A stretch of 64,000 nt of DNA, taken from assembly GCA_902537235.1 (NCBI GenBank), contig CACBAO010000001.1, positions 62,001-126,000 of the forward strand. Direction: 5' to 3'. The notes beneath the pieces were generated by a model that saw only the letters and a program-made list of their open reading frames with translations, was not told the origin of the DNA and made no database searches. Both the position numbers and the translations under genes were made by a program. Source of the stretch: an uncultured Alphaproteobacteria bacterium (lineage in GTDB: Bacteria; Pseudomonadota; Alphaproteobacteria; Rhodobacterales; Rhodobacteraceae). Below, one piece after another: positions 2,661 to 32,386 of this stretch (position 1 is its first letter; each line of letters begins with the position of its first letter).

Positions 2661-3374
2661 TCAAGAATACTCTTTAACTATCATATTAACCATATCTGAG
2701 ATCAGAGGCTCTTGAGTCGTCTTACACCTAACATCGCTATCCAAAACAGATTTTAATCTATTTTCAATTTTTTTGCTAAAACAGAAAAATGTTTTGTCTA
2801 AGTTCTGACTTGCAGAACTCTTTAACAAGCTATCAACAGATTTTTCTGAAAATAATGCAATACCTTTCAAATTTTTTCTGGATAAGATCTTGTCTAATTC
2901 CTCTTTCTGAAAAGACCTTTTTTGCTTATAAACCACATGCTCTTCACAATGAAAGTTATGCTTCGAAAGCTCTGCTTTTAAGTCATATGATATTTCGTTA
3001 CCTCGCAAATAAAATATGAGTGGTTTTTTATTTCTATAGTGGTCTTTTAAGCCAACAAGCAACTGTCTAACATTAGAGAAAATGAATGTATTAGAAACGC
3101 CCGTTTCTTTCAGTAATTCCTCACATCTTTGCCCTACCGCAAAAACAGGTTTTTCAAAGCTCTTCAATTCTAAAGTTATTTTTTCCAAGGCATAAATGGA
3201 AGTAAAAACTAAAACTTCAGCCTCTTTCAAATTTATATCAGTTTTCAATAACTCTATTTCCAAAAGAGGAAATATTAACACCTTCCCATTAAACTTTTCT
3301 TTTTCTAACATTTCCTTGAAACGGCAACTGTCTTTAAAAGTTCTAGTTAGAAGAATTTCTTCAATTAAAGAAAT
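2661..3374 (-). CDS. hemD: Uroporphyrinogen-III synthase, apparent AUU start
   Basis: Cyclises hydroxymethylbilane to uroporphyrinogen III after HemC. From the first ATG (3311) the protein is 216 aa and lacks the conserved N-terminal strand. Extending the same frame upstream gives I-S-L-I-E-E-I-L-L-T-R-T, and LLTR is the expected HemD start motif. No ATG, GTG or TTG exists between the in-frame TAA at about 3389 and the ATG at 3311. An ATT at 3374-3372 lies 5 nt after a GAGGAGG Shine-Dalgarno (3386-3380) inside the end of hemC. I therefore call an AUU start, giving 237 aa and a 14-nt overlap with hemC. The rest (FPLLEIELL, FTSIYAL, VFAVGQRC) fits HemD. The ATG at 3311 remains the conservative alternative. 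Confidence 0.85.
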   Translation of the reverse strand: MSLIEEILLTRTFKDSCRFKEMLEKEKFNGKVLIFPLLEIELLKTDINLKEAEVLVFTSIYALEKITLELKSFEKPVFAVGQRCEELLKETGVSNTFIFSNVRQLLVGLKDHYRNKKPLIFYLRGNEISYDLKAELSKHNFHCEEHVVYKQKRSFQKEELDKILSRKNLKGIALFSEKSVDSLLKSSASQNLDKTFFCFSKKIENRLKSVLDSDVRCKTTQEPLISDMVNMIVKEYS

Positions 3375-4287
3375 TTTTTCCTCCTCTTATTTTTATCTCC
3401 CTTCCTGCTTCACGCCCAATTTCCTCTGCCAAAGCCCAATCCCCTTGCCAAACGTCGTTTATCTTTTGTTGGCCATTAGGACTTATTATTTCTCCCATGA
3501 ATTTAAACTCTTCATTATTTTTTAACGCCAAGCCGCCTATGGGTGTCCTACAGGATCCATCTAACTCCCGCAAAAATGCTCTTTCCGCTTCCACTCTTTT
3601 CTTTGACACAACATCATTGAGAGGAGCTAAAAATTCTTCTATTTTTTCATTTTGCAAATGTTCAATCCCAACAGCCCCTTGAGCCACAGCTGGCAACATC
3701 TCGTCTATTGACACAGGGTTTATTAGTTCTTCTAACCCCAATCGATTTAACCCGGCAGTAGCTAAAAAAGTTGCAACGGCCACATTGTTGTCTAACTTTT
3801 CTAGTCTTTTTTGAACATTTCCTCTAAACTCAACTATCTTTAAATCTTCTCGCTGATTTAATAACTGTGCTTTTCTTCGAAGAGATGAAGTTCCTACAAT
3901 ACAGCCTAGGGGTAATTCGCCAATAGAAGAGTATTTTCTCGATATGAAAGAATCCCTGACATCTTCGCGTTTTAATATAGTTGAAATAACCAATTTTTCT
4001 GGGAGTTCCGTTTCAACATCTTTCATAGAATGAACGGCAATATCTATTCGCTCTTCAATAATCGCTTGTTGAATTTCTTTCGTAAACAGACCCTTTCCCC
4101 CGATTTTTGAAAGAGAGGTGTTCAAAAACTTGTCTCCACTAGTTTTTATGATTTCTATCTTTATTTTTTCAGGATCTATATCATTGGATAATACTAATTT
4201 ATTCTTAACCTCATTAGCTTGAGCTAATGCAAGAGGAGATCCTCTTGTGCCAATGATCAATTTTTCTAAGCTTCTATCTCTACTCAT
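3361..4287 (-). CDS. hemC: Hydroxymethylbilane synthase (porphobilinogen deaminase)
   Basis: Polymerises four porphobilinogens into hydroxymethylbilane. I use ATG 4287 (308 aa); an in-frame TTG at 4317 would add ten Lys/Asn-rich residues. Family motifs: IIGTRGSPLALAQ at the start, HSMKD (about 86-90) with the catalytic Asp, GTSSLRRKAQ (about 132), and ELDGSCRTPIGG, whose Cys (about 246) carries the dipyrromethane cofactor. Length is normal. The gene diverges from tsaD with only 48 bp between the starts, so the two promoters must overlap. hemD begins within its last codons. Confidence 0.97.
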   Translation of the reverse strand: MSRDRSLEKLIIGTRGSPLALAQANEVKNKLVLSNDIDPEKIKIEIIKTSGDKFLNTSLSKIGGKGLFTKEIQQAIIEERIDIAVHSMKDVETELPEKLVISTILKREDVRDSFISRKYSSIGELPLGCIVGTSSLRRKAQLLNQREDLKIVEFRGNVQKRLEKLDNNVAVATFLATAGLNRLGLEELINPVSIDEMLPAVAQGAVGIEHLQNEKIEEFLAPLNDVVSKKRVEAERAFLRELDGSCRTPIGGLALKNNEEFKFMGEIISPNGQQKINDVWQGDWALAEEIGREAGREIKIRGGKNFFN

Positions 4288-30972: not shown

Positions 30973-31589
30973 AACAAAACTTGTTTTTAAAAAGCTTCAA
31001 TGTTTCACGTGAAACAATAAACAGTTTATGTGAATATGAAACTTTGCTGTCTAAGTGGAACAGTAAAATAAACCTTGTGTCAAAGAACACTCTTGCGGAT
31101 ATCTGGAACCGACATTTTTTAGATTCAGGTCAAATTATTAAACACGTTGATGCCTCGAGAAAAAGGTGGGTTGATGTGGGCTCTGGGGCCGGTTTTCCTG
31201 GATTGGTGATTGCGCTACTCTTAAGAGATAGGGAGATAGATTGTGAGCTGGTTTTGATCGAAAAAAGTACAAAAAAAGTATATTTTCTAAATGAGGTTAT
31301 TCGAAAGCTTGATTTGAATGTCAAGGTTTTGAATAATGATATCGGAAATGTAGAACCTTTAAACGCGGACATTTTAACAGCGAGAGCGTTTTCAGAACTT
31401 AACGAACTTATTCAAATAGCACATATTCATAGAAAAGAGAGTGGGATTTGTTTGTTTTTAAAGGGTGAAAACTATAGGTTAGAGATAGATAAAACTTTAA
31501 ATTATTGGTTTTTTGATTATGATATTTTTAATAGCTTAAGTAATCCCTCTGGAAAGATAATCAGAGTGAAAAACATTTTAAAAAGATAA
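30969..31589 (+). CDS. rsmG: 16S rRNA m7G527 methyltransferase RsmG
   Basis: 206 aa, TTG start overlapping mnmG. SAM site WVDVGSGAGFPGLVIALLL; N-terminal NVSRETINSL, IWNRHFLDSGQI, and TARAFSELNELI. The codons for N-V-S-R-E-T are themselves a perfect parS site, a known alphaproteobacterial feature. Followed by parA after a GGGGG Shine-Dalgarno. Confidence 0.96.
   Translation: MKQNLFLKSFNVSRETINSLCEYETLLSKWNSKINLVSKNTLADIWNRHFLDSGQIIKHVDASRKRWVDVGSGAGFPGLVIALLLRDREIDCELVLIEKSTKKVYFLNEVIRKLDLNVKVLNNDIGNVEPLNADILTARAFSELNELIQIAHIHRKESGICLFLKGENYRLEIDKTLNYWFFDYDIFNSLSNPSGKIIRVKNILKR
31001..31016 (+). promoter_or_regulatory. parS site inside the rsmG coding sequence
   Basis: TGTTTCACGTGAAACA, a perfect match to the 16-bp consensus, read in frame as part of codons for NVSRET in RsmG. 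It lies 1.9 kb from the first parS and 0.6 kb before parA. Confidence 0.95.
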
Positions 31590-31600
31590 GGGGGTCTAAA

Positions 31601-32386
31601 ATCTCTAATCCTTCAATAATATCTATTGCCAATCAAAAAGGCGGTGTGGGTAAAACGACAACGGCCATAAATCTATCTACAGCACTTGCAGCTGTAAACA
31701 ATAAAGTTTTGATAGTGGATCTAGATGCTCAAGGAAACGCATCAACTGGTCTAGGAGTTCCAAAAGATGAAAGAGAAAAGTCAACTTATGATTTGCTAAC
31801 TGGCAAAGCTAGTTTAAAAGACATAGTAAAAAAAACTAATATACCATCTCTTTATATTGCTCCGGCTTCAACTGATTTATCATCTATCGACGTTGATCTT
31901 TTTGAGGAAAGGGGAAGAGTTGTAAAACTACGTGACCTGTTTGTAAAAGAAAAGACTGATTTTGATTATATTCTAATTGATTGTCCTCCGTCCCTAAATC
32001 TCCTGACTATAAATTCAATGGTTGCGTCAAATTCTGTATTAGTTCCTTTACAGGCAGAGTTCTTTGCGCTGGAAGGGTTAAGCCAATTGCTATTAACGGT
32101 AAGAGATATCAGATCGAAAATTAATCAAAACTTGAAAATTCACGGCATTGTATTGACAATGTTTGACAAGAGAAACAAATTATCCGAGCAAATTGAGGAA
32201 GATGTGAGAGGAAATCTTGGAGAGTTGGTTTATGACACAATTATACCGAGAAATGTTCGGATTAGCGAAGCTCCATCGTTTTCAATGCCGGCTCTAATAT
32301 ATGACCATAAATGTTCTGGGGCTATTGCTTATCAAAAACTAGCAGCAGAATTCCTAAAAAGAGAAGATCACTTTGAAAGAAGATAA
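31601..32386 (+). CDS. parA: Chromosome-partitioning ATPase ParA, apparent AUC start
   Basis: 261 aa. Pulls ParB-parS complexes during chromosome segregation. A GTG at 31646 falls in the middle of the Walker A motif KGGVGKTTT, so the real start must be upstream. The frame reads SNPSIISIANQKGGVGKT with no ATG, GTG or TTG back to the in-frame TAA. ATC 31601-31603 lies 6 nt after AAGGGGG (31588-31594), which gives a normal ParA N-terminus. Further motifs: LIVDLDAQGNASTGLG, YILIDCPPSLNLLT, PLQAEFFALEGLSQLL. Either a true AUC start or a point change in an ATG; the family call is certain. Confidence 0.93.
   Translation: MSNPSIISIANQKGGVGKTTTAINLSTALAAVNNKVLIVDLDAQGNASTGLGVPKDEREKSTYDLLTGKASLKDIVKKTNIPSLYIAPASTDLSSIDVDLFEERGRVVKLRDLFVKEKTDFDYILIDCPPSLNLLTINSMVASNSVLVPLQAEFFALEGLSQLLLTVRDIRSKINQNLKIHGIVLTMFDKRNKLSEQIEEDVRGNLGELVYDTIIPRNVRISEAPSFSMPALIYDHKCSGAIAYQKLAAEFLKREDHFERR

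Follow-up and report, generated by a model that had tools for sequence, protein, structure and literature searches.

Within the window, that is, the whole 64,000-nucleotide stretch of DNA that was analysed, the minus strand carries hemC followed by hemD, with the proposed hemD start lying inside the end of hemC. It comes from a genome assembly of 1.92 Mb whose completeness is about 81%. The features of the junction, in the direction of transcription of the two genes, are as follows.

3361 to 4287, minus strand: hemC (hydroxymethylbilane synthase), from ATG 4287 to the stop TGA at 3363-3361
3387 to 3389, minus strand: in-frame stop TAA upstream of hemD, which closes the frame 12 nt before the ATT
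3380 to 3386, minus strand: Shine-Dalgarno (SD)-like GAGGAGG, 5 nt before the ATT and within the Gly-Gly codons of hemC
3372 to 3374, minus strand: ATT, proposed start codon of hemD, identical in 14/14 junctions of the genus
2661 to 3374, minus strand: hemD (uroporphyrinogen-III synthase), 237 aa from the proposed AUU start at 3374, recognised by a HEM4 match, the HemD fold and a conserved N-terminus
3366 to 3368, minus strand: TTA, occupying the position where sister genera have their TTG start (TTG in G078, G165, G099, G036 and G138; TTA, TCC or TCT in the window's genus)
3309 to 3311, minus strand: ATG, the first canonical in-frame codon of hemD, rejected as start (TTG in G009 and G021; middle of helix 1)

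After the TAA, the hemD frame reads GAG GAG GAA AAA ATT TCT TTA ATT GAA GAA ATT CTT CTA ACT AGA, the codons for the conserved ILLTR being found at 3356-3342. Five A residues (3379-3375) separate the SD-like motif from the ATT, the first base of the hemC stop lies 11 nt beyond the A of this ATT, and the two genes overlap by 14 nt. A first-pass annotation of the window had placed GAGGAGG, five bases and an ATT in frame with LLTR at these positions, which proved exact when the minus strand was read again. It had also claimed that no ATG, GTG or TTG exists upstream of ATG 3311, and none was indeed found in the hemD frame from residue 22, encoded by that ATG, back to the TAA. The product belongs to the HemD family by its two-domain fold and by its profile match (Pfam HEM4, E 1.2e-22, 80.6 bits for a cut-off of 27.5).

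The distribution of the start site was analysed in 22 genomes of the genus, which, where named, are uncultured Alphaproteobacteria designated in the manner of single-cell genomes (AG-430-P14, AG-899-B02 and others) and the MAG MED-G56, labelled Rhodobacteraceae; the AG-type names presumably designate marine single-cell genomes. HemD was found in 15 of these genomes, and the 14 with a readable hemC-hemD junction are for the most part separate single-cell assemblies. All 14 possess ATT at the hemD site and none has the ATG that the first-pass annotation had named as counter-evidence. AGGAGG stands 5 nt upstream of the ATT in 12 of the 14, and is replaced by AGGTGG in G009 and G021. In the same 12 junctions, no in-frame ATG, GTG or TTG able to yield the conserved HemD N-terminus precedes it, the exceptions again being G009 and G021, where a GTG in the hemD frame stands three codons before the ATT, so that this pair need not initiate at AUU. 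As for the fifteenth HemD genome, G015 (AG-422-M03 contig 48; L014/L084), it was left out of the junction counts: the N-terminal part of TsaD and the C-terminal part of HemD share one open frame on one strand there, while the two genes are divergent in other genomes, an arrangement probably due to chimeric assembly or to an inversion.

The 14 genomes are not independent, since they consist of a main clade of 12 and the distant pair G009/G021, or only three to four lineages. HemD identity to the window's protein is 70-95% for the aligned main-clade members and 42% for G009/G021, and ILLTR is invariant in all ten of the HemD proteins aligned (10 of the 14), at identities down to 42%. The HemC Asn/Asp-Phe codons supply the ATT and favour T at its second base, AAT representing 71% of the Asn codons. 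With few lineages and a HemC reading that partly dictates ATT, the three letters count for little when taken alone. The same is true of the SD-ATT motif, AGGAGG-N4-8-ATT occurring three times in the window vs. 3.9 expected, which is not beyond chance; unlike this motif, the lack of a canonical start and the conservation of the site, taken together, are beyond chance. A modest sign of additional constraint at the SD and ATT may be seen in the hemC codons for Gly-Gly-Lys-Asn-Phe that contain them, where synonymous variation affects 1/5 columns vs. 155/227 for hemC as a whole (12 genomes).

Outside the genus, the hemC loci of 29 family members were inspected, three of which (L058, L059 and L070) were in the wrong frame and uninformative. 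A recognisable hemD lies directly downstream of hemC in seven of these loci, starting with TTG in G036, G078, G099 and G138, with ATG in L054 and L068, and with GTG or TTG, as read from the DNA, in G135. The second genome of G078's genus, G165, reads AAGGAGGAAAAA ATT TCT TTG. Both genomes of this sister genus thus have an ATT at the same SD spacing and, six bases after it, a TTG whose distance from the SD is about 11 nt. The common ancestor of the two genera would probably have had both codons, of which the window's genus presumably retained the ATT, whose spacing is better, after loss of the TTG. An ATT beside a TTG, as in the sister genus, offers a plausible route for such a start to take over.

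Taken as a whole, the evidence makes AUU initiation of hemD inside hemC a well-supported reading of these sequences. We give a probability of about 0.84 to the complete proposal, according to which hemD would be translated from AUU 3374-3372, within the last hemC codons, through the AGGAGG five bases upstream, in a coupled and low-yield manner. Four other readings were weighed against it.

The main remaining rival is a HemC-HemD fusion produced by +1 slippage, ribosomal or transcriptional, on the A6 run (3379-3374) preceding the hemC stop. The hemD frame is indeed +1 relative to hemC, and on this run, found in 11 of the 14 genomes, tRNA-Lys could move from one AAA to another, so that ATT would be read next; the AGGAGG motif is located just before the run. 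However, G006 has only A5, G009 and G021 have AAAAG, and sister genera use an ordinary TTG start two codons further on. Programmed +1 frameshifting of the prfB type relies on an SD followed by a CUU-type slip codon that immediately precedes the stop of the zero frame; at the end of hemC the codons before the stop are AAT, CAA, CAG, TTC or AAA, which led us to reject this type of frameshift, and we regard the fusion in general as improbable.

A start at another near-cognate codon, namely TTA 3368, ATT 3365 or ATT 3356, appears no more probable than the fusion. A start at any of them, all being located before LLTR, would preserve strand 1 wholly or in part, but TTA 3368 is missing in 10/14 genomes, ATT 3365 is missing in 12/14, and ATT 3356 lies 23 nt from the SD.

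According to a third reading, HemD begins at ATG 3311 and the conservation upstream of it is that of a leader. This ATG is the first canonical codon, it is present in 12 of the 14 genomes, and the Pfam HEM4 match begins downstream of it, at residue 26; the profile scores the longer and shorter proteins alike, at 80.6 and 80.4 bits, respectively. When the HemD alignment was searched against PDB sequences, a single weak match (3p9z, E 0.0014) was obtained from residue 47, uninformative on the N-terminus. Against this reading, the codon is TTG in G009 and G021, and the upstream codons are constrained at the protein level: among the 16 codons specific to hemD (3359-3312), the window's genome (G000) differs from G008 by six synonymous and no nonsynonymous changes, from G018 by four and one, and from G009 by ten and seven, respectively. 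In the AlphaFold model, built with ten sequences (mean pLDDT 89.3), strand 1 covers residues 6-9 and helix 1 residues 13-25. Residue 22, the M of ATG 3311, falls in the middle of this helix, and a protein beginning there would lack strand 1 along with nine residues of helix 1, in agreement with the earlier claim that this start would delete a conserved strand. The model was also compared with the Pseudomonas HemD structures 3re1 and 4es6 (3re1_B: Z 21.7 over 230 residues). In VIA-align, the alignments start with residue 3 of the model paired with residue 2 of 3re1, and with residue 4 paired with residue 3 of 4es6. Because the model aligns from residue 3 or 4, the AUU start gives HemD a normal N-terminal register. 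An N-terminus at M3311, the other outcome that had been named as opposing the AUU start, therefore fails on the sequence evidence, and we consider it very improbable.

Finally, a sequence error or a decaying gene has a next to negligible probability, since the same codon occurs in 14 genomes from separate assemblies with the frame open in all of them, and nothing was found in favour of an error at this site; of the two options considered in the first-pass annotation, the AUU start inside hemC is thus retained and the indel or substitution in the window is rejected.

For the AUU start, the mechanism would be the following. The AGGAGG would direct ribosomes to AUU 3374-3372 and, given the 14-nt overlap, ribosomes finishing hemC would probably feed or expose the hemD site, in other words translational coupling. 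The yield of HemD per hemC message would be low, limited by IF3 rejection of AUU as in other bacteria. IF3 control of hemD, by which the first-pass annotation would have haem synthesis tied to initiation-factor levels, is plausible. A HemC/HemD ratio effect resembling that of SigR and RsrA may be guessed at. Concerning RNA structure, folding at the hemD site was no better than that of shuffled sequences (z 0.15, 0.22 and -0.88). Some main-clade members have a UUCUUCC just past the AUU to which the SD of hemD could base-pair (L009, 1485-1510), also not beyond shuffles; such a hairpin could make hemD depend on hemC translation, and is mentioned here as a lead.

A second non-canonical start was found in the window, on the plus strand, at parA.

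31588 to 31594, plus strand: SD-like AAGGGGG, 6 nt before the parA ATC
31601 to 31603, plus strand: ATC, proposed start codon of parA, in the ORF 31544-32386

Orthologs of parA are present in 20 of the 22 genomes of the genus, with ATC (14), ATT (4) or ATA (2) as start, mostly behind AAGG-type SDs, and in none of these 20 does a canonical codon follow the in-frame stop before the Walker A motif is reached. In other genera of the family, parA starts with ATG or GTG in nine of the ten cases inspected. The tenth, L206 (G135), may begin at ACG (GGTGGAGTTCAG ACG AAC CTT ATC), its sole canonical codon before the Walker A region being a TTG that adjoins the in-frame stop.

As for infC, it was found in 13/22 genomes of the genus. 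The 12 starts read (L087-L097 and L099; L098 is clipped) are all ATC or ATA, with AAGGAG upstream. In other genera infC was present in nine of the ten genomes inspected, starting with ATA or ATC in 9/9. The infC of the genus, with no canonical start, shows that non-canonical starts are used there, and for the same reason IF3 discrimination probably works in the genus.

Further non-canonical starts were sought among 511 kb from the window's genome, 837 kb from G008 and 713 kb from G009, a comparison that yielded 487 ortholog groups with 650 reciprocal pairs. The criterion was that residues ahead of the first canonical codon be conserved while their codons change synonymously, and infC was added as a positive control. 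Eighteen ortholog pairs were returned, including three for parA, one for hemD and one for infC. Ten others were set aside on reading, their similarity extending up to an ATG, GTG or TTG, as were two that are antisense to a gene open at the contig end, which by its translation we take to be a membrane pyrophosphatase (HppA). One more (G000 contig 1, 1141-1578) was set aside unplaced. Apart from the latter, a canonical start is absent only in hemD, parA and infC among the 487 groups. Three genes are a lower bound, since the criterion misses those with an early internal canonical codon, as it did hemD in the G009 pairs, where a GTG lies upstream. Smaller surveys returned the same two genes of the window, hemD and parA; antisense shadow ORFs and conserved leaders from a smaller survey were dropped.

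In E. coli the IF3 gene infC starts with AUU, and in Streptomyces with AUC. Both infC and hemD have a conserved non-AUG start of the AUH type behind a strong SD (AUC or AUA for infC in this genus), but IF3 regulates the expression of its own gene, whereas hemD is the gene of a metabolic enzyme and starts inside hemC. E. coli pcnB, with an AUU start said to limit its expression, is like hemD a case outside infC, in another gene and lineage. The earlier remark that AUU starts are known mainly for infC is incomplete, E. coli pcnB and S. aureus cvfC1 having been published. According to PMC13009471, infC starts with AUA in S. aureus, where cvfC1 (AUU) and ccpN (AUA) also possess conserved AUH starts with an extended SD, and AUU and AUA starts give about 10% of the AUG reporter expression in poor medium. 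These cvfC1 and ccpN starts were mapped by Ribo-Ret (PMC13009471), whereas that of hemD is proposed from sequence evidence. In Streptomyces, IF3 acting on the GTC start of sigR holds SigR below its partner RsrA (PMC5472188). Both sigR and hemD have non-canonical starts, but the codon differs, and it is for sigR that IF3 dependence has been shown. A search of open-licence PMC papers found neither an AUU start reported for hemD nor an AUC start for parA.

The putative AUU start of hemD is a real and conserved feature of the sequence; AUH starts are known, and what is new is the gene and the lineage. Such starts are hard to see, as gene finders exclude anything other than AUG, GUG and UUG, and rules restricted to canonical codons would assign truncated N-termini to both hemD and parA. 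Initiation of translation may be the step at which the amounts of the hemD, parA and infC products are kept low or adjusted. Together, these three AUH starts form a concrete set on which to test whether IF3 discrimination serves as a regulatory signal beyond infC. That they represent a small selected set, co-adjusted by IF3 availability as an IF3-tuned regulon, is a tentative and rather doubtful extension; if true, haem synthesis and chromosome partition would both be linked to the capacity for translation.
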